Of a DNA stretch of 64,000 bases, positions 8,202-63,189 are shown one piece after another. The notes beneath the pieces were generated by a model. It had not been told where the DNA came from. It saw only the letters and a program-made list of their open reading frames with translations, and did not search any database. The stretch is from NCBI RefSeq assembly GCF_000568255.1, contig NZ_KK037166.1, forward strand, positions 10,736,296-10,800,295. The letters are read 5' to 3'. The first letter of the stretch is position 1. Every line of letters starts with the position of its first letter. Both the position numbers and the translations under genes were made by a program. The stretch comes from Kutzneria sp. 744. Lineage in GTDB: Bacteria; Actinomycetota; Actinomycetes; Mycobacteriales; Pseudonocardiaceae.

Positions 8202-8368
8202 GGAGGACCGCCTTTGCTGGTCGAACACGTTCGTCGGCGTCATGGTGTCCACGAAGTCTTGGCCGGACCCATGAGCCGGTCAAGGAATGCGCCGGACTTC
8301 CGAAAAATAATGAGGCGTCATGTCCTCGTCGCGTGTGCCGGCCGAGATCCTTGCCCGGTGCGCTCGGG

Positions 8369-9274: not shown

Positions 9275-10463
9275 ATGTGGTGGAACGATCGGTTCGACAG
9301 TGCCGCCATCGGGGTCGAGATCGGCGCCGACCGCGTCGTCGTCGTCTCGGTCACCGAGGACTTCGAGGTGTTGGACACCACCTGCGCACGGTATTCGTCC
9401 GATGTCACGGACGGCCTCGACCGGCGCCCACGCGCTAAATCCTCATGAGGGCTGCTCATGTTACCATAGGTTCAGTATCATTTTCAAGATGCCTCCCAAG
9501 ATACTGGTACATGGGGTATGGGTTCAAGTACTTCGTGAGAGCATGGGACAGGCGGGATAAATAATCACCATTGGACACCTTTTGCGCAGATAAGTCTTGG
9601 CAGACGTAGCTACACCTAAGACAGGAGCCCTAGAAATCACTTGAAAACTGCCGTTAGCCAGGTCAGTCCCGTGCTGACTGTCCCAGGGGGAAGACGAGGG
9701 GATTACTGCCACAGGGTTCGATGTTTTGTCGGTGAGTCCTACGGTGAATGTATGACTCTCCTCCGGATCTACGTTCATCTCCCATGACGACATGCTCCGG
9801 CGGTCGCACTGGTGCGGGCTCAAAGACTTCGTGGTCCCGGTTCCACGGGCGGCTGGTGGCCGATCTTTCCGGCGCGTCCGCCATGGGCCTGCTCGACCGG
9901 GAGTCGATGGACTGGTCGATGGCGGTGCTGCGGCCGCTCGGGCTGTGGCCGCACCAGCTGCCGCCGCTGACCCGCCCCGATCAGAGTTTTTCCGCTCGTC
10001 GAGGAGGCCGCCGAACTCGCCGGCCTTGACCGTGGCAGGCCGTCGTGGTCGGCGCGTCCGGCGCCTGCCTGGCGCCGCTCGCCATGGGGCTGCACCGGCC
10101 GGACGCGACCATGGCATCCGAGCCGGCTGGGTGTGTTGTGCGCCTTGGGAGATCGCCCCGTTCGGTCGGTCTCGTCCACGATGGGCATCGGCGGCCACTG
10201 GCTGCTCGCCCGGTCGCGACGTCGATGACCTCCGGGCGGCCGGTGTCGGCGTCGAGGTGATCAGGGTGGCCGCCGACATGCGGGACTCGCCCGAGGTGGC
10301 GATGGACATCGCCACCTCGCAGGGCGTGTCGGTGGAGATCTCCGCCGTCGACGAGCCGCTGGCCGTCGGAGCCGCCGCGTTGGCCTGGTACACGGTGGGA
10401 GTGCTGCCTTCCTTCGCGGCCACCGGGCGGCTTTTCCCGCCATACAAGGTGTTTCGTCCGTGA
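9275..10463 (+). pseudogene. FGGY-family carbohydrate kinase, decayed
   Basis: Pieces of one kinase appear in order in different frames. The N-terminal nucleotide-binding strand (GVEIGADRVVVVSVTEDFEV) lies at about 9302-9365, HWCGLKDFVV at 9810-9840, ADLSGASAMGLLDRESMDWS at 9858-9920, VVGASGACLAPLAMG at 10040-10090, and the C-terminal AAGVGVEVIRVAADMRDSPE to VGAAALAWY at 10240-10395. These match FGGY kinases (xylulokinase/gluconokinase group), which phosphorylate sugars. The order is right but no continuous frame survives, and a stretch at 9449-9748 of lower GC has no kinase match. The gene is dead. The 240 bases after it hold a possible further fragment I could not identify. Confidence 0.75.
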
Positions 10464-10719
10464 CGGTCGGTCTCGGCTCAGACGTGCCGCTTCGAGCCCC
10501 AAGCGCTCAACGCCGTGGGCTACCTCTCGGCCCGGCTCGGCCGCCGCGACGAGGGACGGACCCGTGTGAACGAGCGGTCGAACTACAACGTCTCCACCAC
10601 GACTGGGCCGTGGAGACGTTGGACAGCCTGGGCTCCCGGCTGCACGAGACGATGCTGGACCTGCTCGGCGCGGCCGGGGTGATCCGGTAGTTGTCAAGTC
10701 CAATTGAGACTGTTGTGGC

Positions 10720-11727
10720 CTACGAGGCTGGTTGCGACTGTTGGTGGACGGGCTGGTTGATCCAGGCCACCTCCGGCAGCACGGGCGGGCGGGGCCGGCG
10801 GGCGAAGCGCTCAGGGTGCGCGGCGTAGGCCCGGTTGAGCGTGGCCTGCCGCTGGACACGGATCTGCTGCGCGGTCCCGAAGTGGACCGAGGCCGGGGTG
10901 TGCATCCCGATTCCGGAATGCCGGTGCTCATGGTTGTAGGCCAGGAAGAAACCCTCGCAGAACGCGCGGGCGTCGGCCAGTGACCCGAACCGGTCGGGAA
11001 AGTCCGGCACGTACTTCATCGTCTTGAACTGCGCTTCGGAGTACGGGTTGTCGTTCGAGGTGCGCGGCCGGGAGTGAGACCGCAGGACACCCAGGTCCAC
11101 CAGGAGTTCGGACACCGGCTTGGACACCATCGCCCCGCCGCGGTCGGCGTGGATCGTGTGTGGCTCGCAGCCGTTACGGCGCACCGCGTCGGCGAGGAAG
11201 TCCTTGGCCACGACCGCGTCCTCGGCCGCGGCGACCAGCCAACCGGTGACGTACCGGGAGAAGATGTCCAGGATGACGTAGCACTTGTACCAGATCCCCT
11301 TCGCGGGCCCTTTCAGCGCGGTGATGTCCCAGGACCACACCTCGCTGGGGCCGCGGGCGACCAGCTCCGGGCGGACCCGGGGCGGGTGGGTGGCGTGCCG
11401 GCGGCGTTCGGACACCTGCCTGGCGGCGCGGGCGATCCGGTACATGGTGGAGATCGAGCAGTGGTAGCGGCCTTCGTCCAGCTCGCGGGCCCAGACCTGG
11501 GGGATGGCCAGGTCCCGGTAGGCGGGGCTGGTCAGCAGGGCGAGCACGGCCGCCCGCTCGGCGTCGGCCAAGGCCGCCGGCGGTGGGGTGCGGGGCAGCC
11601 ATGGGCCGTGCATCGGGCCTGTCGGGCTGGCGCGTCGATAGTGGGTGGCGCGGGGAATGCCGGTCAGCGCGCAGGCTTTCTGCACCGAGGTATGGGCGTC
11701 GCGCAGCTCGGTGAACGCGGTCGTCAT
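10720..11727 (-). CDS. IS3-type transposase OrfB (integrase core)
   Basis: The product has about 335 residues and starts at an ATG that overlaps the orfA stop by 4 bp. The rve-type DDE core is visible: WSWDITALKGP with the first Asp, HADRGG with the second, and SNDNPYSEAQFKTMKY with the final Glu. The C-terminal RHSGIGMHTPASVH is typical of IS3 integrases. The gene itself is intact, but its partner orfA is split, so the element is probably not autonomous. Confidence 0.88.
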   Translation of the reverse strand: MTTAFTELRDAHTSVQKACALTGIPRATHYRRASPTGPMHGPWLPRTPPPAALADAERAAVLALLTSPAYRDLAIPQVWARELDEGRYHCSISTMYRIARAARQVSERRRHATHPPRVRPELVARGPSEVWSWDITALKGPAKGIWYKCYVILDIFSRYVTGWLVAAAEDAVVAKDFLADAVRRNGCEPHTIHADRGGAMVSKPVSELLVDLGVLRSHSRPRTSNDNPYSEAQFKTMKYVPDFPDRFGSLADARAFCEGFFLAYNHEHRHSGIGMHTPASVHFGTAQQIRVQRQATLNRAYAAHPERFARRPRPPVLPEVAWINQPVHQQSQPAS

Positions 11728-44264: not shown

Positions 44265-44828
44265 TCATGCTCCGATCGGGTCGAAGCGGACGGTGAGTCC
44301 GAGGGCGTTGGCCTGCGCGGTGATGCGGCGCATCCCTTGGGTCGGGTCGCGCTTGGCGAAGTAGTCGGCACCGAGGTCGTGGTACGCGACCTTGCCAGCG
44401 AGGACGTGCCAGATCGCGATGACGAGTTTGTGCATGACCGCGACCAAGGCGCGTTGCTTGCCGTGACGCGCGGACAGACGCCGGTAATAGACTCCGTAGT
44501 AGGAATCCTTCTGTTTGATCGCGGCCATCGCCGCGATCCCGAGCACCCGTTTAAGGTTGGCGTTGCCGTGGCGGGTGTGCCCAGACTTGTTGACCCCGGC
44601 GGACTCGTTGACTCCAGGGCACACCCCGATCCAGGAGGCCAGGTGCCCGGCGGTGGTGAACGGCGCCATATCACCGCCAGTCTCAGCGATCACGATCACG
44701 ATCTCGGCGGCGGCGCGCCCGATCCCGGGAATCGTGTCGAGGTTGTCGATGTCCTGCTCCCACTCGGCCTGCTGCATGGTCGCGGCGATCCTGGCAGACG
44801 CCTCGCAGGACTGCTCGACGACTATCAA
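44265..44828 (-). pseudogene. IS110-family transposase, C-terminal part
   Basis: 188 codons remain, all from the Transposase_20 half: IDNLDTIPGIGRAAAEIVI, the catalytic Ser region LASWIGVCPGVNESAGVNKS and GNANLKRVLGIAAMAAI. The N-terminal DEDD nuclease half is missing upstream of about 44830. It cannot move. Confidence 0.85.
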
Positions 44829-49780: not shown

Positions 49781-50455
49781 ATGCACGGTCACCGAGTGGG
49801 CATCACTTTTCGCCAGATACTGTCGCCTGGGCAGCAGCAACGGCTGCTCGGCGGCAAGTCCTCGACGCTGTTCCGTCCCCGCAGCGAGATCCTGCTGCAG
49901 GAAGACCGCTCCGAGCACGCCTACTACATCGTCCAAGGGCGGGTCGCCGCGGTGTACTCGCATCCCGACGGCCGCCAGCAGTTGGAGGCGGTGTTGGGGC
50001 CGGGCGACCTGGTCGGCGAGTTCCCGATGCTCGACTCGCAGCCGCGGTGCGCGACGGTCCGCGCGATCGACGCGTGCTCGGTGTATTCGCTGAGGGCGGG
50101 CGATTTCCTCCGGATCGGGGGCCCGCGGGTGCAATCGGAGCTGCTGGGCTCGTACGTGACGGGCAAGATTCGCGGGCGGCAGGTCCGGCCGTACGACATC
50201 ATGCACCTCAAGGTGCCGGCGCGGCTGGCAATGTTACTGCTGATGTGCGTCGACGTGGCACGGACGCGGATGGGCGACCGGCTGACGCTGCCGTTGAGGC
50301 ACGAAGACCTGGCCGTCTACCTGGGCGTGTCGAAGAGCAGCGTGGACGGCGCGATGCGAGGGCTGACCGGCCGGGGCCTGATCCGTAGCGAGCACCGCGC
50401 GGTTGTGGTGACGGACGTCGACGGGCTGCGCCGCTTCGTCGAACGCGCCGCGTAG
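49781..50455 (+). CDS. Crp/Fnr family transcriptional regulator
   Basis: The product has 224 residues. A cyclic-nucleotide-binding-type beta barrel has GPGDLVGEFPMLDSQPRCATVRA, in which the Glu and Arg of the phosphate-binding cassette are in place, so it could bind a cyclic nucleotide. The C-terminal winged helix reads LPLRHEDLAVYLGVSKSSVD. It ends 100 bases before the cyclase-like gene, same strand, and may control or sense that operon (inference). Confidence 0.88.
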   Translation: MHGHRVGITFRQILSPGQQQRLLGGKSSTLFRPRSEILLQEDRSEHAYYIVQGRVAAVYSHPDGRQQLEAVLGPGDLVGEFPMLDSQPRCATVRAIDACSVYSLRAGDFLRIGGPRVQSELLGSYVTGKIRGRQVRPYDIMHLKVPARLAMLLLMCVDVARTRMGDRLTLPLRHEDLAVYLGVSKSSVDGAMRGLTGRGLIRSEHRAVVVTDVDGLRRFVERAA

Positions 50456-50554
50456 TGACGCCCGTCACAGGGGCGCTCTCAGTTCTGTGCGCGGCGGTGC
50501 CGGCCGACCGGCACGCTGCCCAATAGGTGTCCGCCACGTCCAAGTGAGGTCGAC

Positions 50555-51322
50555 ATGTCAGGTGGTGACGCAGCAGCGCGCAGCAGGGGCCTGCCGCCGT
50601 TCCGCGCCGTGTTCGCGGTGGACACGATGTCCTTCGGGCGCAACACGGATCCCGTGCAACGTGAACTCGCGGACCAGTTGCCGTCGGTGGTTGCCCGTGC
50701 GTTCGACCAGGCCGGCGCGGAGGACGCCTGGCGAGACCGGCACTTCGTGCGCAACCCGGGCGACGGGTACTGGTTCTGTTGCTCGGCGAGCCATCTCCCG
50801 GTGCTGCTCGGTGTATTCGGTGCGCTCCAGGACTTGTTGCTGGGGATGGCCTTGGAGGACCGAGGCGGTCCGCGTATGCGACTGCGGGCCAGCCTGCACG
50901 TCGGGCCGATCGCCGACCCGGGCCGGTCGGGCGAGATCGTGGGCAACACTGTGATCACCGCGCACCGGCTGCTCGACGCTCAGCCGGCGCGGGACGCGCT
51001 GGAACGGTCCGACCCCGACCAGACCTTGCTGGTGGCGATGATCTCGGCGCCCGTCTACGACAGCGTGGTCGCGACCGGCCTCGGAGCTGTGCCGGCCGCG
51101 CGTTTTGCGGCCTGCACCGTCCAGGTGAAGGAATTGTCGGCCCAGGCCTACCTATACGTGCCGTGCCCGAGTGGCGACCTGTTGCGGGACGGCGTCGCCG
51201 GCAAGCCGTTGGCCCGGACCGACTCTACGGCCGGGGGGCTGGTGGTCACCGGCAGCGGCCAGGGCATCTACCAGCCGCTGGTGTTCGGGGACATCGTCAA
51301 CGGCCCGGGGACCGCGCGATGA
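50555..51322 (+). CDS. Class III nucleotide cyclase-like protein with a C-terminal shared motif
   Basis: The product has 255 residues. Class III cyclase features are visible: first metal Asp at 23 in VFAVDTMSFG, second acidic loop in VRNPGDGYWFCC, LRASLHVGPI, and VGNTVITAHRLLD, where active cyclases have VN.AAR. Some catalytic positions differ, so activity is uncertain. Residues 235-249 (GQGIYQPLVFGDIVN) recur at the N-terminus of the next protein. It is first of eight packed genes and overlaps the next by 4 bp. It may sense or make a nucleotide signal for the operon. Confidence 0.7.
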   Translation: MSGGDAAARSRGLPPFRAVFAVDTMSFGRNTDPVQRELADQLPSVVARAFDQAGAEDAWRDRHFVRNPGDGYWFCCSASHLPVLLGVFGALQDLLLGMALEDRGGPRMRLRASLHVGPIADPGRSGEIVGNTVITAHRLLDAQPARDALERSDPDQTLLVAMISAPVYDSVVATGLGAVPAARFAACTVQVKELSAQAYLYVPCPSGDLLRDGVAGKPLARTDSTAGGLVVTGSGQGIYQPLVFGDIVNGPGTAR

Positions 51323-53340
51323 CCGCGGACAATGCGCAATTCCCTTTCGCCACCGGGCAATCGGTGCACCGGCCGCTCGTCTTCGGCGACATCCGCAACG
51401 TCCAGCACGAACACCATGTGACCATCCCCGTGGGCGACCAGCCGACACGTGTCCCTCGCGTCACGGGCTTCATCGACCCGGATGTCGTCGCGGTGTCGGC
51501 GCGCCGGTTCGTCGAACCGCCCGGCCTGTACCGTCTGTTGCCGGTGCTCAAGCTGCGCAGGTACCTGATCCTGAGCGGCGAGCGTAAGTCCGGCCTCTGG
51601 ACGGCGGGGCTGAACATGTTGGGGGAATGCGCATCCCTATGCGGCGTCGAGTTGCGGCCGAGGTCGGCCGTCGTCGACGAGCAGAGTTCGCTCGACGACC
51701 TGTTGGGTCGCGACGACCGCTCACATGCCGTCCTGCTCGACCTGACCGGCACTGACCCGGTCGCCGACTGCGCCGTGTTCGGCAGCGTGGCCGAGCAGCT
51801 GGTCCACTTCGGCGAGCAGCTGGCCCACTGCGAGAGTTTCTTGGTGGTGCTGGTGCCGGCTGAGGTGCACGCGTTGTTCAACGCCACGGTGCCGAAGTGC
51901 TGCCACCCACTGCCGGTGCCGGTCGCGACCGACGTCTTCCGCGAGCATCTGCGCACCGCAGGGTTCGCCGAGCACCGGATTGACGACTGGCTTTCCTTCG
52001 ACGAGTTGCCGCCCCTGCTGAGGCGGGCGCTGCCCGGAGAGGTTGCCCGGATCACCGGGCTGATCGCCGGTATCGATCCTGCCGGCTCCCGGGGACCCGC
52101 GGTCCTGGGCGAGGACTTCAGCAACGCGGTTCGGGACTGGACCGTCCACTTGCGAGCAGAGTTCGATTCCGGGGACGAGGAATGGCGCGCCGCCACGACC
52201 ATGGTGGCGTTGATCGAACACGCGCCATGCGAGGTCCTGTTCCGCGAACTGCGACGGTTCATGGCCATTCTCGGCGTGCCCGAGGTGGGCCGGTCCCGGC
52301 CGTTCGCTGGTCCCGGCGCCACTCGCAGACTGGCAGCGATCGGGGCGACCAGGACCTCCGACGACCGGGTGGAGTTCCACCGGCCGGCATTCGGCGCGGC
52401 GGTGCTGCGCTACGTCTGGCAGGAGTACCCGGAGAACCGCGAGCACCTGTTGCGATGGCTGGCCGACATCGAGCTCGGCCGGGGCACCGGCCTCTACGTG
52501 CGAGACGGCGAACGCCTGGTCAATCGGCTGGTCGAGCTGCTGTCCGGCGCGCGAGACGCCCGCACCGTGCTCCGTATCGCCGAGGCATGGGTGGCGCGGT
52601 CGCTGACTTGCGACTATCTCCTGCCGATGGTGGAGCGGCTGCTGGTCAAGGCGGCGACGAGCGGAGGTATCGGCTCCGCGGTGCGCAAGCGGCTCTATGA
52701 CTGGGCGTACGTGGTGAACTCGGATGAGCTGTTGGCTGAAGTTGTCGCGCGGGTCTGTGGCGGTATCGGGGCCGAGTACGGCAACGTCGCGATGACGAGG
52801 CTGAGGCTGCTGGCCGGCTGGGGTGACCGGCGCGTCGGCGATGCGGTGGTGTCGGCCGTGTCGGCCGTCGCGCGGTGCTCCCCGGCCTTCGACTGCGTGC
52901 TGGAGCAGTTGGTCACCTGGATCGCCGACGCCGAGCCCACGCGTCGTCGCGTCGGCCTGGCCGCGTTCCGCACGATCACCGATCCGGCGACCCATCCCGA
53001 GTGCCTGCGCCTGGTTCGGCCGGCGGTGGAGGACGGCGGCAGTGATCGGGCCGTCGTCGCCGGGTGGCGGGCACTGCTCAAGCAGGCGAGCACCCAGGAG
53101 GTGCACCTGGCCGTCGTGGCGTGGCTCAACGCGGCCGCCGCCGACACCGAGCACCGGGAGGTGATGATCGACCTGCTCGCGGACGCGGCCGGCCAGGGGG
53201 CGGACGCGTTCGTCAAGGTCGGCTACGTCTGCTACCACTGGTCGTTGGCCGCCGCCGACGAGGCCCGGGACGCCGTGGTCGCCCTGCTCCGGCTGCGGCT
53301 GGACGAGGTCGATCCCATTGTCGCCACGCTCGCCGACTGA
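51319..53340 (+). CDS. STAND-like protein with shared N-terminal motif and helical repeats
   Basis: The product has about 673 residues. Residues 13-27 (GQSVHRPLVFGDIRN) match the C-terminal motif of the preceding protein at 10 of 15 positions. Residues about 65-230 look like a NACHT/STAND NTPase without a usable Walker A: the strand YLILSGERKSGLW stands where GxxGxGKT is expected. The last 300 residues are alpha-helical repeats (HEAT/ARM-like). The design recalls bacterial NLR-like sensors with a recruitment motif, but with a dead nucleotide site. Starts by ATGA overlap. Confidence 0.6.
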   Translation: MTADNAQFPFATGQSVHRPLVFGDIRNVQHEHHVTIPVGDQPTRVPRVTGFIDPDVVAVSARRFVEPPGLYRLLPVLKLRRYLILSGERKSGLWTAGLNMLGECASLCGVELRPRSAVVDEQSSLDDLLGRDDRSHAVLLDLTGTDPVADCAVFGSVAEQLVHFGEQLAHCESFLVVLVPAEVHALFNATVPKCCHPLPVPVATDVFREHLRTAGFAEHRIDDWLSFDELPPLLRRALPGEVARITGLIAGIDPAGSRGPAVLGEDFSNAVRDWTVHLRAEFDSGDEEWRAATTMVALIEHAPCEVLFRELRRFMAILGVPEVGRSRPFAGPGATRRLAAIGATRTSDDRVEFHRPAFGAAVLRYVWQEYPENREHLLRWLADIELGRGTGLYVRDGERLVNRLVELLSGARDARTVLRIAEAWVARSLTCDYLLPMVERLLVKAATSGGIGSAVRKRLYDWAYVVNSDELLAEVVARVCGGIGAEYGNVAMTRLRLLAGWGDRRVGDAVVSAVSAVARCSPAFDCVLEQLVTWIADAEPTRRRVGLAAFRTITDPATHPECLRLVRPAVEDGGSDRAVVAGWRALLKQASTQEVHLAVVAWLNAAAADTEHREVMIDLLADAAGQGADAFVKVGYVCYHWSLAAADEARDAVVALLRLRLDEVDPIVATLAD

Positions 53341-53415
53341 CCCTCACGAAATCCCGTCACCCGATCCGCTCCGCCAACTGTGGTGGGCGGAGCCCTGTCC
53401 TGCCGAGGAGCCCGC

Positions 53416-54600
53416 GTGAGCACGGCTACCGAAAGCCCTTTCGCCGCACTGTTGAACAAGTGCCTTGCCCCGGTCACCACGCGGCAGGACGCGATGATCG
53501 CGGACTCGGAGACGCTGAACTGGGCGCGCGCGGTGTACGCCGCCTTCGGCGACCACGACGAGGGCGACGGCCTGACCAAGGAGGAGCTCACCCAGCACTG
53601 CGCCGGCGCCGGGCCCGGTCGGTTCGAGCCCCGCTTCGACCACTTCATGACCACCAAGATGCTGTCTACGGACAAGGCCGGCGGCCATCGGTACGTGCTG
53701 GACGACAGCAGTGCCGTGATGCTGTTGATCATCGAGCGGCTGCTGCGGGCCGACGGCGTGGCCGAGTTGATCATTTTGCTCGAGCGGACCCAGGAGGACC
53801 TGGCCCTCGGCCTGCTCAGCCGCCAGGAGGTGTCGGACCTGCTGGTGCTGATGCGGCAGAAGCTGTCGATCGAATGCCCTCGGCTGGAGCGGCTCAGCGC
53901 GAAACCGGTCGAGGATGTGCTCCGCTACCGCCGGCTGCGGCGCAACGGTGACGCCCTGGTGCCTCGGGCCAGGAAGCTGATCGACGTGGTGGCCTCGACG
54001 TTTCCGGAGTTGCACGGCCTGGGGACCCGGCTGATCGCCGAGGCGCAGCGGTACTCGCTGGCGGTCAGCGCGGTCGTCGACCGGATCGCCTCCTATGCCC
54101 GGGCTCGTCGCGACTTCAGTTTGCTCGCGCCCGGCCAGTACCTCGATGCCGTCCGGGCCGCCTCGGTCGACCAGTTGGCCGAGGTGTTCGCAAGCACCGT
54201 GTTCGACCGGCCGGAGCTGGAACTGCGGCCGGACGAGGTAGCCGTGGCCGCGGAGGAGTTCCGGCCGACGCCGAGCCGGGTCCGGCCGCCCCGCTCGATA
54301 GACCTGGGACCGCTGACCGATCCCATCGACCTGGTGCGGGACCGGGAGGAGCGGGTCAGGGGGACACGACGGCACCGGCTCGGCGAGTTGCTCGACGGCG
54401 AGCGGAGGGTCGACCTCACCCCGCTGCTGTTGGAGAAGGGCTGGCCCGGCGCGGTCGAATTGGTGGTCTGGTTGATGGCCGCGGTCGCCGACCGCAGCCT
54501 CGGCTGCCGGATCGAGTTGTCGGACCGGTTGTTGGTCGACAGCACGGCCACGGTCACCTACCTCACGCCCGTCCAGCTGGTCCGAAGCGGGGGAACGTGA
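53416..54600 (+). CDS. Possible kleisin-like (JetA/MukF-type) subunit
   Basis: The product has about 394 residues and is mostly helical. The first 150 residues may be a winged-helix domain (LTKEELTQHCAGAG, HRYVLDDSSAVMLLIIERLL); a long helical middle follows (LLSRQEVSDLLVLMRQKLSI), then a small C-terminal domain. I do not recognise a family by motif. The role is inferred from position: first of the subunits that lead to an SMC-like ATPase, where JetA or MukF would be. GAGGAG lies before the GTG start; 75 bases separate it from the STAND-like gene. Confidence 0.5.
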   Translation: MSTATESPFAALLNKCLAPVTTRQDAMIADSETLNWARAVYAAFGDHDEGDGLTKEELTQHCAGAGPGRFEPRFDHFMTTKMLSTDKAGGHRYVLDDSSAVMLLIIERLLRADGVAELIILLERTQEDLALGLLSRQEVSDLLVLMRQKLSIECPRLERLSAKPVEDVLRYRRLRRNGDALVPRARKLIDVVASTFPELHGLGTRLIAEAQRYSLAVSAVVDRIASYARARRDFSLLAPGQYLDAVRAASVDQLAEVFASTVFDRPELELRPDEVAVAAEEFRPTPSRVRPPRSIDLGPLTDPIDLVRDREERVRGTRRHRLGELLDGERRVDLTPLLLEKGWPGAVELVVWLMAAVADRSLGCRIELSDRLLVDSTATVTYLTPVQLVRSGGT

Positions 54601-54601
54601 C

Positions 54602-55126
54602 GTGGACGAGACCGCGTACTGGTTGGCCCGGCTGCGGGCGACGCGCACCGCGCCGGAATTTGCCGTGCCGGACGCGGCGGAGCTGGTGAGGGTGGCCGAG
54701 CGGGCCGGCCGGGCGTTGGCCATCGCCGAAGACGGGGACCAGGTTCCGGTGCTGGTCCTGGGCGCGGCCGCCGACTTCCTGCCCGAGGACGGCGACGGGT
54801 TCACCCGCCCGGTGGCGACCGGCCCGGTGCGCCTGGTCATGGCCGTCTGTCTGCGCTGTTGCTGGCTCGACCCTGATCTGCCGATCTATCCGGGCCGGCC
54901 GACGACGGTCGGAGAGATCCAGGCCGTCCTCGCGGCGCTCGGCGAGTCGTACGACGCGCCACGGCTTGGCCGACCGCTCATGGCGTTGCGGGTCACCGGA
55001 TATCTCCGCCGCGACGGCGATCTCATCCGGCTGGGGCCGAAGGTTGCGCTGTGGAGCACCTCTGAGCTGACCGCGTTGCGCCAACTACACGAGCTTTTGC
55101 CTGAACCGGATGGGAGGTTTCGATGA
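54602..55126 (+). CDS. Small winged-helix-like subunit 1 (possible JetB/kite type)
   Basis: The product has 174 residues. The last 80 residues look like a winged helix ending in YLRRDGDLIRLGPKVALW. The next protein has a similar late hairpin (LVARVDGAVRLGPQFDRL), suggesting paralogous kite-type subunits of a condensin-like complex. The GTG starts 1 base after the preceding stop. Family not recognised; call rests on context. Confidence 0.45.
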   Translation: MDETAYWLARLRATRTAPEFAVPDAAELVRVAERAGRALAIAEDGDQVPVLVLGAAADFLPEDGDGFTRPVATGPVRLVMAVCLRCCWLDPDLPIYPGRPTTVGEIQAVLAALGESYDAPRLGRPLMALRVTGYLRRDGDLIRLGPKVALWSTSELTALRQLHELLPEPDGRFR

Positions 55127-55749
55127 CCACGACGGGGTTCGACGCGTTGCCCGAGGACGCCAAGGCCGAGGTCCGCACTGCGGTAGCCGCGCTTGAGGTC
55201 GCGGCGGCGCCGGTACCGCGCACGGCGTTTCGGGCGCTGGCCGACGAGACGCTGCATGGCGCGGTGGTGGAGCTGCTGGGCTCGCTGGGGCGGGTGCTGG
55301 TCGTGTCGGGACGCGGGTTCCTGTCCGGCTATGACGATCGCATCGCGAGCAGGCTCGCCGCCGAGGGCTTCGGTGTACTGCCAGAACGGCAGCGCGCCAC
55401 GCTGGCGCTCGTGTTCGTCCTGTCCGTCGCGATTCCACGGGCCGAGGGTCGGATCGCCGCCGAGACGCCGTGGACGAAGGGGATTCCGGTGACCGTGCAG
55501 GACATGCGGGTGGGACCGCTGAACGAGTCCCGGGTCGAAACGGAGCTACGGGAGCTGGCACGGGCCGACCTGGTCGCGCGGGTCGACGGGGCGGTGCGCC
55601 TCGGGCCGCAGTTCGACCGGCTCACCGAGCGGGCCCTCAAGGACCTGTTCGACGAGCTGATCCTGTTCGCCGAACCGGACGGCGACGCCGCCCGGAAGAT
55701 CCGCCGGGACCGCGAGGTCCGCCGAGCACAGGAGCGTGACCAGCGATGA
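55123..55749 (+). CDS. Small winged-helix-like subunit 2 (possible JetB/MukE type)
   Basis: The product has 208 residues, close to JetB. Helical segments and a late winged hairpin (ARADLVARVDGAVRLGPQFD) are visible, followed by an acidic-to-basic helical tail. It overlaps both neighbours by 4 bp, directly before the SMC-like gene, the position of the kite subunit in Wadjet and MukBEF loci. Role inferred. Confidence 0.5.
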   Translation: MTTTGFDALPEDAKAEVRTAVAALEVAAAPVPRTAFRALADETLHGAVVELLGSLGRVLVVSGRGFLSGYDDRIASRLAAEGFGVLPERQRATLALVFVLSVAIPRAEGRIAAETPWTKGIPVTVQDMRVGPLNESRVETELRELARADLVARVDGAVRLGPQFDRLTERALKDLFDELILFAEPDGDAARKIRRDREVRRAQERDQR

Positions 55750-58700
55750 GCGAGAGCAACGGCGGCGACAACGGGATCGATCGCGGGGTGATCGGCGACC
55801 GGGAGCTGCTGGCGGTGCAGACGTTCGACATCGCCCGCCTCACCAACCATCCGGTGCCGATCGTGCCGAACACCTTCGTCGCCGTGTCCGGGCAGGGACC
55901 GCGGGGCGACTCCAACGGCTCCGGCAAGACGACATTCCTGGCGGCGGTGTCGTTGCTGCTCGCGGACCCCCAGTGGGGCCTGTTGACCAACGGCGGCCGG
56001 CCGGCCGCGGGACTGTTGTTCAAGCCGGCCCCGGCCGGTATCGACCTCGCCCAGCGCATTCCACCGGCGGCCCAGGGCTTTGTCGTTGGCGTGTTCGCCG
56101 AGCAGGACGATCCCGAGTCCACGGCGCGCACGATCTGGATCCGGATCGAGCCCACCACACCCCATGTGCAAGTCCGCTGGGCGGACGGCGCGCATCTGAT
56201 CGCCGCCGGCGACGACGACGAGCGCGACCGCCAAGCGCCGCTGAAGTGGCGCGCCCTCAAGCGAAACGGCACGATCTCGGCGCGCCAGTTCGCGGAGGTC
56301 TGCTTCGGGGACGCCCCGCGCTGCCTGAGCTACCTCGACACCTCCCTGCGACCGCCCGCGCCGTCACTGCTCAGCCACCAGCTGACCGAGATGGAGCCGC
56401 ACGAGATCGGCGCCGCGCTGATCTCCCTGTCCGGCGCGAAGCACCTGATCGACCAGGAACGCCGAGACCGGGCGGCGCTGCTGGCTCAGCGCCGCGCGCT
56501 GGCCGAGAGCGAGGCCGCCGACCGCGAGAACCGCCGCGAGGAGGAGACGCGACTGTCGGAAGTCCGGGCCAGGAACAAGTCCCGGTCGATGCTGGACAAG
56601 GCCGACCGCAGCTGGCAGGTGTTCCTGGCCAAGCGCTACCTCCACGTGCTCGCCCGCGACGAGGACCTCGCGGAGCGGCTGCGAGAACTTGACGCGCAAC
56701 GGCTGCCGCTGGCTGAAGATCTACGGGACAAAGGGGGCGAGCGGGACGCCCTGGCAGCCGAACGGGATTGCGTGTCGTTGGCTGAGCGAACCCTGGCGGA
56801 GTGGGAGGTCGCCAAAGAGAGCCTGGCCAGCGCTCGTGACGAGCGAGCGGTCTTGGCGGCCGGCCGCGCCCAACTGGCCGACCGCCGTGCGCAGTGTCGG
56901 GCTCGGGCCACCGGCTGGACCAAGGAATCCGTTGCCAAGGCACAGAACAACAAAGAGGATGCGGAGCGGCTGCACGTCGCCGCGCTCGTGCGGGTCGCCT
57001 CGGCCACCGCTGCGGTGGAGGAAGCCGCCGCCGTGCTCATGGCCGCTGAACAAGGCCTGGGTGGCTCGGCGGGCCAGCTCACGGCCGCGCTCAACGCCGC
57101 CGGCTGCTCGGCGGCGCCGTTGTTCGATGCCGTCACTGTCGACGAGGCGCAGCGCGCGCACTGGGAGCCGCGGCTGTGGCCGTGGCGTGATGCGGTGGTC
57201 GTGGCCGGCGGCGTCGAGGACGTCGCCAGCGTCGCGGCCGAGTTCCCGGGCGCACTGCTCGTCACCGAGGACGAGGAACCGATCGCCAGCCCGGCCGGCA
57301 TCGGCTGCCGCTTCGCGATCGGCGGCTTCCTGCGGACGCTGTCCGAACGCTGGACACCGGAGGATTCCGAACGCTGGGTCCACGACGACGGGCAGCGGAC
57401 CACGGTGTTCGGCGGCTTCGCGGGGCCGGTCGCCGGGCGAGAGGCACTGGTCACCCGACTACGAGGCGAGCTCGACCAGAAGACTGCGGCCCAGCGGACC
57501 GCGGCGGAAGGCCAGCAGGCGGCCGCATCCGCGCTCGCCGTCGCGATCACGCGATACGATGCCGCCGTCGCGGCCGCCGAGTTGACGGCAATCGCTGCTC
57601 AGGACGCGGATCTCGCCGCCAGACTGTCCGATGTGGACGCCCGGATCATCGCTCGGGAAACCGCAGAGCGGGAGAAGTTCGGGCTGTGGCGGCAGGCGCA
57701 GGACATCGCCGACCAGTACCAGTACCGCACGCTGCTCGCCGAGAGCAAAGTCGAACAAGCCCAGCAGGCTCTAGATACGCATGACGAGCGCATGGCGGCC
57801 GTCAAGCAGGACCGGGTGGCCCTGGACGTCGAACGTTGGCGTGTGCTGTGGCCGACCGGCCGTGACGGAGCGGACCACCAGTTGCACGCCGAACCCGGCT
57901 TCGCCGACCGCAAGGCCGAGTCGCTCGGCACGGAGACGATGCGCCGCATCTACGACGCCTTCGAGGCCTGCGAGTTCACTCCGGACAGTGAACAGACCCC
58001 GGCCGACATGCGGCGGGCATTCACACTTCTGGCCCGCCTTGAAGGCCAGCTCGGCCTGGCGAAGGTGCCGACCGTCACCTTCGCGGACGTCACGTCCACC
58101 CTGTCCAAGCAGCTGGAAGACACCGACGCGCACGACCGCCGGGTGCTGACGACGATCGACGAGGAGCAGGCCAAGCGCCGGCGCTACAACGAACATCTGC
58201 GCGAGGAGGTGGACGGGCGCGAGGCCACGGTGCGCAATCTCCAAGCTATGATCGGCCGGTCGATCGAAGGGACCCTCGACCAGGTCTCGCAGGCATTCAA
58301 TCGGCTCGACCTGGACAACGGCGGCTTCGGCGCGGACCTCGTCGTGCACGGTCCGCCACCGGCCGACGACGGCGTCTGGCGCTGGGAGGTCACGCCGCGC
58401 TGGCGGCGTTCCCAGCGCGGCGGCCTGGTCTCGTATCAGGTGATCGCCAACGGCGCCCAGGTCAAGGTGCACGCCGTGCAGCTGGTGCTCGCCGCGCTGC
58501 TCGCCGACACCAGCACCCAGGGACGCGTGCTCGTGCTCGACGAACTGGGCAACAGCCTCGGCGACGTCAACCGCAAGGACATCCTGCGAGTGCTGAAGAC
58601 CGTCGCCGAGGAACGGCGGGTGACGGTGCTGGGCACCTGCCAGGACAGCGTCCTGCTCGACGCGTCCGAGGTGTGCGGTGAGTTGCTGTGGTTCAACCAC

Positions 58701-58811
58701 GCCCACGAGTACGACACGTTCAACCGGCCCACCCGGGCCTGGGGATTCGACGACCAGTCCCGCCGCGTGGAGCTCACCGCCCCGGCCCTGCGGGCAGGGA
58801 GGACCTCATGA
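55746..58811 (+). CDS. SMC-like ATPase (JetC/MukB type)
   Basis: The product has 1021 residues. An N-terminal ABC-type head has Walker A GDSNGSGKTT at 54-63. Two long coiled-coil stretches (about 230-420 and 580-690) flank a central domain of about 120 residues that would be the hinge. The C-terminal head has a degenerate signature (VIANGAQVKVHAVQLVLAAL) and Walker B RVLVLDELGNSLGD near 926-939. It is the motor of condensin-like complexes and of Wadjet, which extrudes and cuts circular DNA. Overlaps with both neighbours are 4 bp. Confidence 0.8.
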   Translation: MSESNGGDNGIDRGVIGDRELLAVQTFDIARLTNHPVPIVPNTFVAVSGQGPRGDSNGSGKTTFLAAVSLLLADPQWGLLTNGGRPAAGLLFKPAPAGIDLAQRIPPAAQGFVVGVFAEQDDPESTARTIWIRIEPTTPHVQVRWADGAHLIAAGDDDERDRQAPLKWRALKRNGTISARQFAEVCFGDAPRCLSYLDTSLRPPAPSLLSHQLTEMEPHEIGAALISLSGAKHLIDQERRDRAALLAQRRALAESEAADRENRREEETRLSEVRARNKSRSMLDKADRSWQVFLAKRYLHVLARDEDLAERLRELDAQRLPLAEDLRDKGGERDALAAERDCVSLAERTLAEWEVAKESLASARDERAVLAAGRAQLADRRAQCRARATGWTKESVAKAQNNKEDAERLHVAALVRVASATAAVEEAAAVLMAAEQGLGGSAGQLTAALNAAGCSAAPLFDAVTVDEAQRAHWEPRLWPWRDAVVVAGGVEDVASVAAEFPGALLVTEDEEPIASPAGIGCRFAIGGFLRTLSERWTPEDSERWVHDDGQRTTVFGGFAGPVAGREALVTRLRGELDQKTAAQRTAAEGQQAAASALAVAITRYDAAVAAAELTAIAAQDADLAARLSDVDARIIARETAEREKFGLWRQAQDIADQYQYRTLLAESKVEQAQQALDTHDERMAAVKQDRVALDVERWRVLWPTGRDGADHQLHAEPGFADRKAESLGTETMRRIYDAFEACEFTPDSEQTPADMRRAFTLLARLEGQLGLAKVPTVTFADVTSTLSKQLEDTDAHDRRVLTTIDEEQAKRRRYNEHLREEVDGREATVRNLQAMIGRSIEGTLDQVSQAFNRLDLDNGGFGADLVVHGPPPADDGVWRWEVTPRWRRSQRGGLVSYQVIANGAQVKVHAVQLVLAALLADTSTQGRVLVLDELGNSLGDVNRKDILRVLKTVAEERRVTVLGTCQDSVLLDASEVCGELLWFNHAHEYDTFNRPTRAWGFDDQSRRVELTAPALRAGRTS

Positions 58812-60250
58812 GCTTCTGGGACCAGCACGGCGACGACGCCTACACAGAGGCCGACGACGACACCCCGGTCAGCTGTCCACTGCTGGTCGGCGAGGCGCAG
58901 GGCCGAACGCGGTGGCCATTGCCGGGACTGCCAACGGGAATCGCCGCCTACACGGTGCCCAAGAAGACCGAGGCGGGTCCGGTCGTGCCGAAGGATCGGC
59001 GCCAGCGCCCCAATCCTCGGCGGGTGGACCTGGTGGTCGAGGTGATGGACGGCTCGTTCCAGCTGCCGGCGGGATTCAGCACGAGCCAGCTGAAGTGGGT
59101 GCTCACCATGCCGTCGCGGCGACAGTGGCGCGGTGTGCTCTCCAAGTTCGGGGATTCGGCCTGGGACAAGGCGATCCAGCTGGCCCGGGCCGGCGTCGTG
59201 GTGGTGGAGTGCGCTACCGAGGGCTTCGGCTACCAGCCGGTCGGCATCCGGCTGACGGCGGCCTGGCAGGAGGTCGCCGCCGACGCGGTGGCCGACCTCA
59301 CCGGGTGGCGGCCGCCGGCCGAGGTCCGAGCCGAGCTGATCGCCCTCATGGAGTCCGTGCCCGACCTGGCAGCCGAACGAGCGCTGTTGGCCCGACAGCA
59401 TCTGGATGATCCGTTGTGTGTCCCGGAGGGCTCGAAGTCCGGCGCGACGCGATGGTCGGTCCACGAGGCCGCGATCCGTGCGGTCTGTGCCCGACACGGC
59501 CTTCAGGTCGAGGGCGTGACGCCGACCGAGGCCAAGGTCGCCGCCGAGGCGTTCCACAACTCCCACGGCTGGACCGGTGCCCGACGGACCGCGTTCGCGA
59601 ACCTCGTGAACCTTCCGTTCGCACTCGCGGTGCGAGAACCGTTCGTCGCGGTGCTGCTACGCGGCCCGGTCGTCTGGCGGATCGGCGGCGTCGTGGCCGA
59701 CGCTCGCGCCTGCGTGCCGTTCGTCGGCGTGCCGGCCAACAGCCTCGACGTCATCGGCGTGCTCGACCCGACGCGCGTGCGCGGCGTGCTCGTCATCGAG
59801 AACCGGGACACGTTCCAGGATGTCTGCTGGCAGGAGGACATCATCGACCGCTGGCTGTGCGTGTGGGGACGCGGCTACTCGCCCAACGCCGTGATCACCG
59901 TCGTCAAGGCGATGGGGTCGCTGCCGGTCGCCGGCTGGGCCGACCTGGACGCCGACGGCGTCGGGATCATCGCCAATCTCGTGAAACGCCTCGGCCATCC
60001 GATCCGCACCGTCGGCATGGACGCGACGCTCTGGCTCGCTGCCAAGAAACGCCGTCAGACGCCGACGGCACAGCAGCGAGGCCGCCGGCTGGCCGAGGAC
60101 CTGGCCGTTGACGGCCCGGAGTCGCTGCGCGACCTCGCCGCCCTTGTGGCACCGGACGGGGACGGGACGGAACAGGAGCTGATCAGCAAGCACGTGGTGC
60201 CCGAACTCGACCGCATCCTTACCGAGTTCGAGGAAGGAGCAGGTCCGTGA
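58808..60250 (+). CDS. TOPRIM nuclease-like protein (JetD type)
   Basis: The product has 480 residues. The C-terminal half carries TOPRIM features: Glu331 in GVLVIENRDTF, then VWGRGYSPNAVI and ADLDADGVGI with Asp379, Asp381 and Asp383. JetD of Wadjet has the same ENxxxF ... W-G-x-G ... D-x-D order and is the topoisomerase VI-like nuclease. The N-terminal half (WVLTMPSRRQWRGVLSKFGD) is helical. Directly follows the SMC-like gene by ATGA overlap, as in Wadjet. Confidence in TOPRIM is fair; the Wadjet link depends on both motif and order. Confidence 0.72.
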   Translation: MSFWDQHGDDAYTEADDDTPVSCPLLVGEAQGRTRWPLPGLPTGIAAYTVPKKTEAGPVVPKDRRQRPNPRRVDLVVEVMDGSFQLPAGFSTSQLKWVLTMPSRRQWRGVLSKFGDSAWDKAIQLARAGVVVVECATEGFGYQPVGIRLTAAWQEVAADAVADLTGWRPPAEVRAELIALMESVPDLAAERALLARQHLDDPLCVPEGSKSGATRWSVHEAAIRAVCARHGLQVEGVTPTEAKVAAEAFHNSHGWTGARRTAFANLVNLPFALAVREPFVAVLLRGPVVWRIGGVVADARACVPFVGVPANSLDVIGVLDPTRVRGVLVIENRDTFQDVCWQEDIIDRWLCVWGRGYSPNAVITVVKAMGSLPVAGWADLDADGVGIIANLVKRLGHPIRTVGMDATLWLAAKKRRQTPTAQQRGRRLAEDLAVDGPESLRDLAALVAPDGDGTEQELISKHVVPELDRILTEFEEGAGP

Positions 60251-63189
60251 GCGGCTATTTCCGTCGGTACAGCCGGTTGGTGCGCCTGCCTCGCGGCAGA
60301 TCGTTGGTGCGGAACACACCCTACGCCGGGGAAGGTCTGCGTCGGGCGCAGCGCGGCGCAGTGCACGCCGTGTGCGGGCACTTTGCGACCTCGATGGCGC
60401 CGGCACTTGTCGCGATGCCCACGGGCAGCGGCAAAACCGCCGTGATGACCATCCTTGCGTTCGAACTGGAGGCCGCGCGGGTGCTGGTCGTGGCCCCGTC
60501 CAAGGTGCTGCGCGAGCAACTCGCCGACGAATTCCGGTCGCTCAAAGTGATTCGAGACCGCGAAGTGTTCCCGCCCGACCGACCACTGCCGAAAGTGGCG
60601 GTGCTGGAACACAAAGCTGACGCGCAGGTGTGGGCCAGTCTTGGTGATCACGATGTCGTTGTCGGCACGATCAACGCGGTGTCCCCGGTGCTGGCCGACG
60701 TCGCCGCGCCGCCTGCCGGCACGTTCGATCTGATCATCATCGACGAGGGACACCACACCGCGGCACCCAGCTACCGGGCGCTGCTGGACGCATTCCCGGA
60801 TGTGCCGGTGGTGCTGTTCACCGCCACGCCGTTCCGGCGGGACCGGCAGCACCTGCCGGCCGAACTTGTCTTCAACTATGGGCTCTCCCAGGCATTGGCC
60901 GAAGGCGTGCTCGCACCGATCGACTTCGTGCCGATCGACGTCGCGTCCCAGGCCACCCCCGCCCAGCAGGATATCGCGCTGGTCGAGGCGGCCCGCGGTC
61001 TGCTTGCGACAGTCGAACACACCGCGGCCGGTACGTGCGTCATCGCCCGTACCAGCACCATCGCGCACGCCGAGCAACTCGTCGAGCGCTATCGCGAGGC
61101 CGGCCTGGAGATGGGTTTTATCTCGGCCGGCACGTCGGCATCGGAGGCCAGGGCCGTCCTGGACCGGCTCAGGGCCGGCGAACTGGCCGGCCTGATCAGT
61201 GTCGGCGTCCTCGGTGAGGGCTTCGACTTCCCCCGCTTGAAGATCGGGGTCTACCACCGTCGACACGCCAGCCTCCCGGCGACGCTCCAGTTCCTGGGCC
61301 GGATCGCCCGCGTGTTGCCCGGCGGACCACGGGCCTGCCTGGTCGCGGTCAGAGAGGAGGTCAACGACGAAACCCGCGAGCTCTACGCCAGCGATGTCGC
61401 CTGGGCCGAGTTGGTGCCTGCCCTTGCTGACGCGGCCGTCGCCGCCGAGGGCAGGCGGCGGTCCTACGTGCTGAACTTCGACACCACTCTGTCGCAGCCA
61501 CTGAGCCTGTCCGCGTTGCGCCCCAGCAAGAACGTCCAGGTGTTCCAGCTGCCGGAGGACAGCGCTCTTGACCTGCGGACACCGGTTGCCGGTATCGCCC
61601 GCGGCATCGTGACCGACTGGGGGATCGACGACGAGGGCCGGCTCGCCGTGTTCATCACCCAGCATCTCGACCGTCCGGATTGGATCGCGTCCGACGCCCT
61701 GGACGGCATCCGGCCGGAGCTGCACGTGGTGGTGCTGGACAAGGAAAAGCGCCTCGCGTTTGTCTACGGTACAACCGACCACACCATCGGCTGCCTTCTC
61801 CGCGCACTCGGCGAGGAGCGGCCCCTCCTGGTGAACCCCGCCTGGCTGGACCGAGTCATGGCGGCACGAACGTTGTACGGATACCACGCGATCGGCATGC
61901 GCAGCACCAGGGGCGCGGGCGGCAGGCTCGCCGGCTACCGGCAGGTCTCGGGCACCGATGTCGGCCGCGCAGTGCTGCCGTCGGAGGCCCGTTCCTATGG
62001 TGCCACCCACGTGAACGCGAGTGTGCCCGGCGACATCGACGAACCGGGCGGCGCACGGCGCAGCTCACTTGGCATCGCCTACGCCCGTGGCAAGGTCTTC
62101 AGCCCGACTCGGCTGGATCTGCTGGCCTTCCGGACCTGGTGCGACGAGCTGGCGGACGTGATGACCGCCAGCTCCATCGCGGCGCCGGCCGGCCTGCCCG
62201 GCCTCGACCTGCCCAGCCCACGACTGCTCGAGGCGTTCCCCGCACACCCGTACCTGGTCACGGTGGATCCTCTGCTGCTGGGGCAGGGGATCCGGGTCGG
62301 TGACGCCAGGACCGGCGCGTGGTACGAGATCGAACGCCTCGAGCTCCTGGTCGACAGTCATTCGGCGTGGGCGTTGCAGCTGGTCGGCAACATCGATGGG
62401 CAGCCGTGGTGGCACGGGGTCCTCACCACTGACGGTGCCGTGCATTCCAACGACAGCAACATCCTCGTGGATGTCGGCGCGGGCGAGCCAGTGTCTCCTC
62501 TGGCCGGCGTGCTGCAGCGCACCGCGACATCGGTGTTCTTCGCCGATGGCGCCAGCACGATCGGCGGCCAGGTCTACCGCCGCCGCGTGGACGGCTATCC
62601 GGACCTGCAGCCACAGGTCGTGCGGAGCCTCGGGTTCGACCACGTCGACATCAGGGCGGAGGCCAAGAACCCTCGCCGCGGCAAGATCACCATCAAGGAG
62701 TACATTGTGGCGTGGCTCGCCCGCGATCCCGATGTCGAGTTCGTGATCGACGACGACCGGGCCGGAGAGACCGCCGACCTGGTTGTGATCCACCGCCCGG
62801 ATAGCCGGGGAATACGCCGGATCTGGCTGTACCACTTGAAGTTCTCCTCGAAGCCCAAGCCTGGCCGTCGGCTCGGCGACCTGTACGAGGTCTTTGGCCA
62901 AGCCGGCCGCAGCGCGCGCTGGCTGCACGCCGCGCAGCTGGCCCGGCGGCTGCTGGACCGTCTCCGGACCGGCAGCAAGGTCGCGCACGGCGATCCCGAC
63001 CAAGTCCAGCAGCTGCTGGCTGACATGGTCGCTGGCTGCGTGGCCGTCGACTGGGGGATCGCCGTCGTGCAGCCGGGCCTGGTGGCCGCGGCGGTCAACG
63101 CCAAGGCGACAATCAAGGTGATGGTCACCGAGCTGCGCGAGTTGGCGTTGCAGGTGGATGCCGACTTCGTGGTCATAGGTCACGAATGA
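60247..63189 (+). CDS. SF2 helicase with possible C-terminal nuclease-like domain
   Basis: The product has 980 residues. Helicase motifs: Walker A AMPTGSGKTAVM near 56-67, DEGH box LIIIDEGHHTA near 163-173, FTATPFRRD, and motif VI QFLGRIARVLPGG near 353. The middle 350 residues are unassigned. Near the end, AGETADLVVIHRPDSRGIRRI and WLYHLKFSSKPKPG followed by DLYEVFGQAGRSARW have the strand order D...xxK of PD-(D/E)XK enzymes, with His where Glu or Gln is usual. The GTG overlaps the TOPRIM gene by 4 bp. Wadjet does not normally include such a helicase. Confidence 0.8.
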   Translation: MSGYFRRYSRLVRLPRGRSLVRNTPYAGEGLRRAQRGAVHAVCGHFATSMAPALVAMPTGSGKTAVMTILAFELEAARVLVVAPSKVLREQLADEFRSLKVIRDREVFPPDRPLPKVAVLEHKADAQVWASLGDHDVVVGTINAVSPVLADVAAPPAGTFDLIIIDEGHHTAAPSYRALLDAFPDVPVVLFTATPFRRDRQHLPAELVFNYGLSQALAEGVLAPIDFVPIDVASQATPAQQDIALVEAARGLLATVEHTAAGTCVIARTSTIAHAEQLVERYREAGLEMGFISAGTSASEARAVLDRLRAGELAGLISVGVLGEGFDFPRLKIGVYHRRHASLPATLQFLGRIARVLPGGPRACLVAVREEVNDETRELYASDVAWAELVPALADAAVAAEGRRRSYVLNFDTTLSQPLSLSALRPSKNVQVFQLPEDSALDLRTPVAGIARGIVTDWGIDDEGRLAVFITQHLDRPDWIASDALDGIRPELHVVVLDKEKRLAFVYGTTDHTIGCLLRALGEERPLLVNPAWLDRVMAARTLYGYHAIGMRSTRGAGGRLAGYRQVSGTDVGRAVLPSEARSYGATHVNASVPGDIDEPGGARRSSLGIAYARGKVFSPTRLDLLAFRTWCDELADVMTASSIAAPAGLPGLDLPSPRLLEAFPAHPYLVTVDPLLLGQGIRVGDARTGAWYEIERLELLVDSHSAWALQLVGNIDGQPWWHGVLTTDGAVHSNDSNILVDVGAGEPVSPLAGVLQRTATSVFFADGASTIGGQVYRRRVDGYPDLQPQVVRSLGFDHVDIRAEAKNPRRGKITIKEYIVAWLARDPDVEFVIDDDRAGETADLVVIHRPDSRGIRRIWLYHLKFSSKPKPGRRLGDLYEVFGQAGRSARWLHAAQLARRLLDRLRTGSKVAHGDPDQVQQLLADMVAGCVAVDWGIAVVQPGLVAAAVNAKATIKVMVTELRELALQVDADFVVIGHE

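Follow-up and report, generated by a model that had tools for sequence, protein, structure and literature searches.

What do the eight genes encode that run along the + strand at 50555–63189 of a 64,000-nucleotide stretch of Kutzneria sp. 744 DNA, and do they form one system? The genome is a single 11.65-Mb contig, and the stretch, hereafter the window, lies at 10.74–10.80 Mb. In order, the genes are a cyclase-like gene (Cyc), a gene for a STAND-like protein (Std), five genes arranged as in a Wadjet condensin (JetA, X4, JetB, SMC and JetD) and a large superfamily 2 (SF2) helicase gene (Hel). An earlier note on this DNA had taken all eight for one system; it overlooked a Crp-type regulator gene (Crp) that lies 99 bases upstream of Cyc. 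The explanation that best fits our results, to which we give a probability of about 0.7, is that the core is a Wadjet-like, DNA-looping condensin with an exchangeable effector, accompanied by a separate front cassette and a separate helicase.

The condensin core and its relation to Wadjet

The last gene of the core (53416–60250) connects it to Wadjet. JetD matches Pfam JetD_C over the cut-off (1.8e-12), and among the PADLOC models it scores best with JetD1 (5.3e-12), far ahead of JetD3 (0.016) and JetD2 (0.055). Its profile matches solved MksG at 9.9e-6, and comparison with the canonical JetD of the same genome gives an hhalign probability of 93. Residues E331, D379 and D381 are invariant in the six aligned rows. 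On these profile matches the TOPRIM part of the protein is homologous to JetD/MksG, which bears out the earlier placing of a TOPRIM gene at the end of the Wadjet order.

The other core proteins were scanned with the PADLOC 2.0.0 Jet models (Wadjet types I–III) at E values up to 1, and none of the window JetA, X4, JetB and SMC proteins matches any of them. JetD alone is recognised among the core proteins, and no four-subunit match to one type is obtained. As a positive control, the same models detect all four subunits of the genome's canonical Wadjet-I (JetA1 7.9e-213, JetB1 2.4e-94, JetC1 0, JetD1 9e-135). Because JetD matches, while JetA, X4, JetB and SMC miss models that recognise the Wadjet-I of the same genome, the core is, as far as profiles tell, a Wadjet-like lineage outside PADLOC Wadjet types I–III, in agreement with the earlier remark that the note knew of no described Wadjet or MksBEFG type with this gene set. 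The canonical type I locus, which is complete, lies at 2.81 Mb (L058 3407–10065), so that the genome carries it besides the divergent core.

With Wadjet JetABCD (types I–III), MksBEFG and EptABCD the core shares the order kleisin-like subunit, small subunit, SMC, TOPRIM, the homologous C-terminus of JetD and, in a relative, a KITE-like fold; the Wadjet order assigned to the five genes before the helicase therefore stands. It differs from all three in having two different small subunits and an extra N-terminal domain on JetD, a putative docking domain. Some core relatives depart further from Wadjet in carrying a kinase instead of TOPRIM. Among the titles and opening parts of abstracts listed by searches of open-licence PubMed Central papers, none describes an actinobacterial Wadjet of five genes that has a docking domain or a kinase effector.

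The core recurs in other genomes. Relatives of SMC are present in 28 of 394 genomes of the class, the window's own included; 20 of the other 27 were read, and all 20 loci carry JetA, X4, JetB and SMC by profile (fused X4-JetB counted), with JetD or the docking domain in 0/20 by profile. A scan of genome contigs gave 180 SMC relatives, the best 80 of which were kept, partly from the same genomes as the 20 and several on contigs that end near SMC. The docking domain is found in six of the 80 (L080, L081, L124, L092, L109 and L112), and a fifth subunit was not seen in the other 74. In L080, L081 and L124, from Actinomadura rupiterrae, Streptomyces sp. ISL-36 and S. prunicolor, the five core genes are contiguous at 34–51% identity, with about 40% for SMC. 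A docking-domain profile matched 10 of 248 genomes of the family to which G861 belongs (the Saccharothrix genome with L112), and of the eight new ones, all read, L229, L230, L231 and L232 hold all five genes of the window's kind by profile matches. Together with L080, L081 and L124, these make seven further actinobacterial genomes with the five-gene core. Viral contigs scanned with Hel and with the SMC alignment gave no relative; tblastn of plasmids gave none with JetD and one Nonomuraea record with SMC.

The absence of JetD from most SMC relatives recalls MksBEF-like condensins without a nuclease, and the core could be a chromosome-organising condensin of that kind, its TOPRIM subunit being a repair or topology factor rather than a defence nuclease. 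The 20/20 and 74/80 relatives without JetD or docking domain favour this (some contigs end close by), as do the JetD-less JetA-X4-JetB-SMC units of L033, L034 and L037, which have an SbcCD-like pair 3–9 kb away (checked with Pfam in L037); these neighbours suggest a chromosomal role for the JetD-less branch. The window and its seven close relatives differ in carrying the TOPRIM subunit, which is found in 8/8 rows of the window's SMC clade, though four of these were found through that subunit. TOPRIM is also scattered: JetD matches occur in 3 of 298 genomes of the window's order, its own included, and one is an unrelated arrangement. For the window's core we regard a chromosomal role of this kind as unlikely, and prefer the Wadjet-like reading. 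The other two matches in the order are L057 and L056; the latter (4881–10812, G560) encodes a different SMC-like protein, of 1550 residues, and then a protein with a JetD-like TOPRIM C-terminus and no docking domain; it represents another Wadjet-like arrangement and was set aside. An alpha/beta hydrolase-like gene that follows SMC in four JetD-less loci (hydrolase read by eye) was rejected as a hidden effector.

The fold of the small subunits is consistent with a Wadjet-like condensin. A profile comparison relates X4 to JetB (E 9.9e-5, probability 58). A single open reading frame (ORF) matches both in 8 of the 20 class loci, as it does in many of the loci of the best 80 SMC relatives. A natural fusion, from L147, was folded with a mean predicted local distance difference test score (pLDDT) of 80.4 and a predicted template modelling score (pTM) of 0.54. 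Its only two Foldseek matches below 1e-3 are both ScpB (2.8e-4 and 6.3e-4), the next being a JetABC Wadjet-II chain, 9qe0_D (2e-3; subunit not named), and an Nse1-Nse3-Nse4 chain (4.4e-3). JetABC chains match at 2e-3, 0.031 and 0.039, and 15 of the top 20 matches are to proteins of KITE type or to chains from SMC complexes that bear KITE subunits. Judged by the fold of this relative's natural fusion, X4 and JetB are a KITE-like pair. PADLOC JetB1 is reached by 1 of 45 small-subunit rows, at 4.3e-5. As to the larger subunits, the SMC alignment keeps the Walker A region in 12/12 rows and the Walker B region in 11/12 (the L057 piece ends before Walker B); seven of these 12 rows match LmuB (best 3e-8). 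The JetA family recurs before X4 in the loci of relatives, and the JetA AlphaFold model (pLDDT 74.6, pTM 0.44) has winged-helix-like ends and a helical middle.

Several results weigh against this assignment of the subunits, in addition to the missing PADLOC matches. Against canonical type I JetC the window SMC gives a poor alignment (hhalign probability 10.9), and its best PADLOC match is mad3 (4.1e-8). The ABC signature motif of the family seems to be lost or replaced, since SGGQ in the canonical JetC of the same genome aligns, in a weak alignment, with the divergent NTAQMDE / NGAQVKV. The best kleisin match of JetA in Foldseek is MukF at an E value of 0.37, its sequence has no significant match to a known kleisin, and 0/42 JetA rows match a JetA model. 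As the MukF match is not significant, the name kleisin is mainly positional. The KITE matches of the L147 fusion have TM-scores of at most 0.28 by query length, and the fold is that of a relative rather than of the window proteins. Finally, the canonical Wadjet-I JetA, JetB and JetC gave no convincing alignment with the window families, and PDB profile searches with SMC, JetA and JetB matched no condensin subunit.

This divergence could mean that the core is a Wadjet of type II or III that the profile libraries miss. Among the 12 SMC rows, JetC2 is matched by four (best 1.9e-6) and JetC3 by two (0.0029), and the X4-JetB fusion aligns along the 384-residue 9qe0_D chain (TM 0.28). The silence of all Jet models on the window JetA, X4, JetB and SMC and the preference of JetD for JetD1 over JetD3 and JetD2 argue the other way, and make membership of either type improbable in our judgement; a lineage outside the three types remains the reading that we prefer.

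Effectors on a shared N-terminal domain

The profile of the docking domain (A3) was built from eight rows, window included. The domain was found in 16 loci (the window, L057, six of the 80 SMC relatives and eight from the 248 genomes), joined to TOPRIM in 11 and to a Ser/Thr kinase in five. The TOPRIM loci comprise TOPRIM-a (window, L080, L081, L124, L229, L230, L231 and L232) and TOPRIM-b (L092, L109 and L234; the L234 gene is broken and was assigned here because 139 of its residues align with L092 at 58% identity); the kinase loci are L057, L112, L228, L233 and L235. L232 (10014–17210, G1084) departs from the remaining TOPRIM-a loci in that JetD precedes JetA at the head of the genes. Pfam Pkinase matches the L057 and L112 proteins at 1.2e-26 and 6.2e-27, and GQGAVY, ALK, HRD-KP-N, ADWG and APE, which we take to be kinase motifs, are present in all five kinase proteins. 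Four of the proteins (window, L057, L112 and L092) were scanned with Pfam, and in each the docking domain is left without a match.

The docking domains of L092 (TOPRIM) and L228 (kinase) are 84% identical, and their effectors are unrelated (local score 42, as for other unrelated pairs); against L057 and L228 together, the L092 domain is 82–84% identical. L228 and L233, in turn, share 55% identity in the docking domain and 88% in the kinase. Therefore, it is the effector part that has been exchanged, and not the whole gene. The N-terminal domain would dock the effector on the condensin. In an SMC tree of 33 chosen rows, 15 of them docking-domain loci, the TOPRIM-a rows form one clade (100/100), with long branches flagged for L232, the window and others; in the other clade kinase, TOPRIM-b and effector-less rows are intermixed. 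L235 was left out of the tree because its SMC is split; in the 20 kb read at that locus the profiles of JetA, X4 and JetB matched nothing. L057 is likewise a degenerate member, its SMC gene being interrupted, by eye by a transposase gene.

Near the kinase, all five kinase loci carry another conserved gene (1.7 kb on in L228); its product has about 340 residues and is 83–85% identical to the L112 copy. It is absent from the window and from 10/10 other docking loci, and three copies scanned gave no Pfam match. This gene is a possible substrate or partner of the kinase.

Wadjet is known to extrude DNA loops and to cleave small circular DNA by means of JetD (PMC10586767), and by analogy the core is expected to extrude loops and to license TOPRIM cutting. 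After loading on DNA, SMC, the kleisin-like JetA and the KITE pair X4/JetB would extrude loops; a condition marking small circular or foreign DNA would then lead the condensin to activate its fifth subunit, held by the N-terminal docking domain, which is conserved. In the window form the TOPRIM nuclease would then cut the DNA; in the kinase form the same trigger would result in phosphorylation by the Ser/Thr kinase on the same docking domain. More tentatively, the core may belong to a new type of Wadjet whose condensin senses DNA topology in general and has a plug-in output. The docking domain would then bring in either a TOPRIM nuclease, for cutting the DNA, or a Hanks-type kinase accompanied by its conserved partner gene, for signalling by phosphorylation; here the nuclease form would stand behind a Crp-cyclase-STAND switch that works through a cyclic nucleotide, and would be linked to a helicase-nuclease. 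If one N-terminal domain does carry a nuclease or a kinase, the sensing by the condensin would be separable from the response, and natural kinase and nuclease versions with such similar docking domains would make the hand-over of the signal from condensin to effector directly testable. The core may also be a bacterial example of a condensin whose two KITE-like subunits differ and are fused in some loci, in parallel to the Nse1-Nse3 pair of Smc5/6.

Front cassette, helicase and the question of a single system

The reading of the eight genes as one system implied the same order in other genomes and front and back genes conserved with the core, and neither was found. The test used tblastn at 1e-5 on 109 condensin loci (20 + 80 + 8 + L057; some genomes occur twice and several loci are cut by contig ends). 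Relatives of Crp, Std and Hel are each present in 0/109, and relatives of Cyc in two, L125 and L128, where the matches lie 2.0–2.5 kb past SMC on the opposite strand and fall within ORFs 877 and 1037 codons long. A helicase-like ORF of L081, on the opposite strand about 3 kb before JetA, counts against the zero for Hel, as it matches the helicase part at 5.9e-6 when that locus is searched alone. Core genes were not seen beside Crp-Cyc-Std in L060, L062 and L194. The eight genes as one conserved unit are rejected on these counts. The full set was seen in Kutzneria sp. 744 only, and we read the 75-base gap between Std and JetA as the seam between two units that occur apart, and the locus as a whole looks, from its sequence, like three units: front cassette, core and helicase.

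The layout leaves room for a local arrangement. The eight ORFs were recovered with the contacts described before, that is, 4-bp overlaps at Cyc/Std, X4/JetB, JetB/SMC, SMC/JetD and JetD/Hel, a 1-base gap between JetA and X4, and the 75-base gap, in which simple scans found no promoter-like or terminator-like site. A codon-position gene caller gives the same eight genes but begins Cyc, Std, JetA and Hel further downstream, so that the contacts at these genes depend on the start chosen. The eight genes, or nine with Crp, could thus be one locally assembled, signal-gated defence system, in which Std would detect the invader, Cyc make a cyclic nucleotide, Crp switch on the operon, the condensin cut foreign circles and the helicase-nuclease degrade the products. 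The single strand, the tight overlaps, the gap without a terminator-like site and the Crp-type site at the head of the operon are all compatible with it, and the possible overlap of the Hel start with the JetD stop, taken with that gap, is a point against separating three units. It is opposed by the 0/109 counts and by the lack of core genes beside Crp-Cyc-Std and in nine neighbourhoods of Hel relatives; moreover, 4-bp overlaps are found between unrelated genes as well in such genomes. We therefore find a single local system doubtful, and treat front cassette, core and helicase separately.

The front genes do occur without the core. Crp-Cyc-Std is found without a condensin on replicons of Streptomyces sp. 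NBC_01450 and Embleya sp. NBC_00896, and a second copy in the Kutzneria genome itself, at 7.47 Mb, also lacks one. Crp relatives adjoin Cyc-Std in L060, L062 and L194, and the Cyc/Std 4-bp overlap recurs in L194, L198 and L060. Std relatives are present in 51 of 249 genomes in the family of G199.

The Cyc sequence alone gives no match in Pfam, PADLOC or NCBIfam. A profile of nine Cyc relatives, however, finds class III cyclases, with 3mr7 at 9e-9, while uridylate cyclase 8jsz gets no further than 0.28; D23, G69-D70 and R138 are invariant in the nine rows. An Asn is usual before that Arg in such cyclases; the position is not kept here. By profile Cyc is a class III nucleotide cyclase. It resembles the Pycsar cyclases in this domain and its two conserved metal-binding Asp residues (D23 and D70), and its relatives adjoin PycTM genes (L078 and L079) and Crp genes. 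Unlike in Pycsar, no PycTM or PycTIR was found among the nine window proteins scanned; the receptor candidate is the Crp regulator, and a STAND-like partner is paired with the cyclase. Two further Cyc relatives lie in the Kutzneria genome (L195 and L196, at 9.19 and 9.97 Mb), one near a Crp gene, with neighbours that differ.

Std gave nothing of note by its sequence alone. Two of four Std relatives scanned match nSTAND3 under the cut-off (2.2e-4 and 0.0037), Walker A is not intact in the window protein (SGERKSGLWTA), and six relatives have, by eye, an Arg where the Walker A Lys is expected. The cyclase label of the earlier note is upheld by the profile of relatives. The motif PLVFGDI is common to the Cyc tail and the Std head, and this pair scores 58 against at most 31 for nine other Std heads. 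Among 10 gene pairs (gene before Std, gap below 60 bases; L062, L078 and L206 left out for larger gaps), six of whose first genes are too distant for a Cyc call by BLAST, the own pair ranked first in six, second in two, sixth in one and tenth in one. A short motif common to the end of one gene product and the beginning of its STAND-like partner is also a feature of effector-associated domain (EAD)/BASS conflict systems, for which cyclic nucleotide monophosphate (cNMP) cyclases and inactive STANDs are described (PMC7159879, PMC8195603; BASS via PMC12261475). The vWA-MoxR pair of those systems was not seen here, and the words SMC, TOPRIM and Wadjet are absent from the main text of PMC7159879 and PMC8195603.

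A GTGA-N6-TCAC site overlaps the Crp stop codon; it is the only one in the 64-kb window, against 1.55 expected by chance. The same operator-like site lies over the Crp stop in L194 and L062, two of six other loci scanned; the stretch from Crp to Cyc showed none in L060, L078, L079 and L195. With the shared short motif, it makes Crp, Cyc and Std look like one linked cassette (49781–53340). In this separate cassette Std would sense, Cyc would make a cyclic nucleotide, and Crp would bind it, act at the site before Cyc and probably drive the operon from there.

Hel would be a separate helicase/nuclease of the same neighbourhood. The description of a large helicase with a nuclease-like end is confirmed by its Pfam matches (Table 1) and by a C-terminal module whose E-x-A-D and H-x-K motifs are both present in 10/10 aligned members. 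The module has no Pfam match, and in our own reading it is PD-(D/E)XK-like. Hel resembles RadD-like and type I restriction-like SF2 helicases, matching ResIII and, far under its cut-off, RadD (1.4e-18), and differs from them in having this module of its own. The family is widespread, with relatives in 6 of 394 class genomes at 1e-30, own included, and on 77 plasmid records at E values up to 1e-20. Nine neighbourhoods were read, five in genomes (with a gene caller that misses genes in lower-GC stretches) and four of the 77 plasmid records (by annotated names), and no core gene was seen in any. BREX, type I restriction and AbiE genes adjoin Hel relatives in three of the four plasmid records.

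Coordinates and neighbouring features

Table 1. Features of the locus, in window coordinates unless a locus is named.
Feature	Position	Strand	Basis
Crp/Fnr-type regulator, cNMP-binding domain and HTH_Crp_2	49781-50455	+	Pfam cNMP_binding 4.7e-19, HTH_Crp_2 3.4e-13
Crp-type operator-like site AGTGA-N6-TCACA, overlapping Crp stop codon	50454-50469	.	motif scan
Cyc, predicted class III nucleotide cyclase domain and C-terminal homotypic tail	50555-51322	+	profile match to 3mr7, 9e-9
Homotypic motif PLVFGDI, Cyc tail	51275-51295	+	match to Std head
Std, degenerate STAND-like protein	51319-53340	+	nSTAND3 under cut-off in relatives
Homotypic motif PLVFGDI, Std head	51373-51393	+	match to Cyc tail
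75-base gap, front cassette/condensin core	53341-53415	.	sequence scans
JetA, kleisin-like subunit	53416-54600	+	position; family recurs before X4
X4, first small subunit, KITE-like	54602-55126	+	fold of relative's X4-JetB fusion
JetB, second small subunit, KITE-like	55123-55749	+	fold of relative's X4-JetB fusion
SMC/JetC-like ATPase	55746-58811	+	SMC_N 0.0054 (under cut-off), conserved Walker regions
JetD-like effector subunit	58808-60250	+	Pfam JetD_C 1.8e-12, PADLOC JetD1 5.3e-12
JetD N-terminal putative docking domain, residues 25-169	58880-59314	+	profile A3, E 5.6e-65
JetD TOPRIM nuclease domain, residues 322-461	59771-60190	+	JetD_C, MksG profile match, invariant residues
Hel, SF2 helicase (back gene)	60247-63189	+	ResIII 7.8e-24, Helicase_C 5.4e-7
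Hel C-terminal nuclease-like module, E-x-A-D ... H-x-K	62554-63036	+	conserved in aligned members
Kinase-neighbour gene	L112 9221-10276; L057 9403-10416; L228 12906-13925; L233 7761-8768; L235 7786-8793

An IS110-type transposase gene lies at 44265–44828 of the window, about 5 kb before Crp. After Hel, an ORF at 63574–63999 matches HTH_32 under the cut-off (1.1e-6) and may belong to another mobile element.

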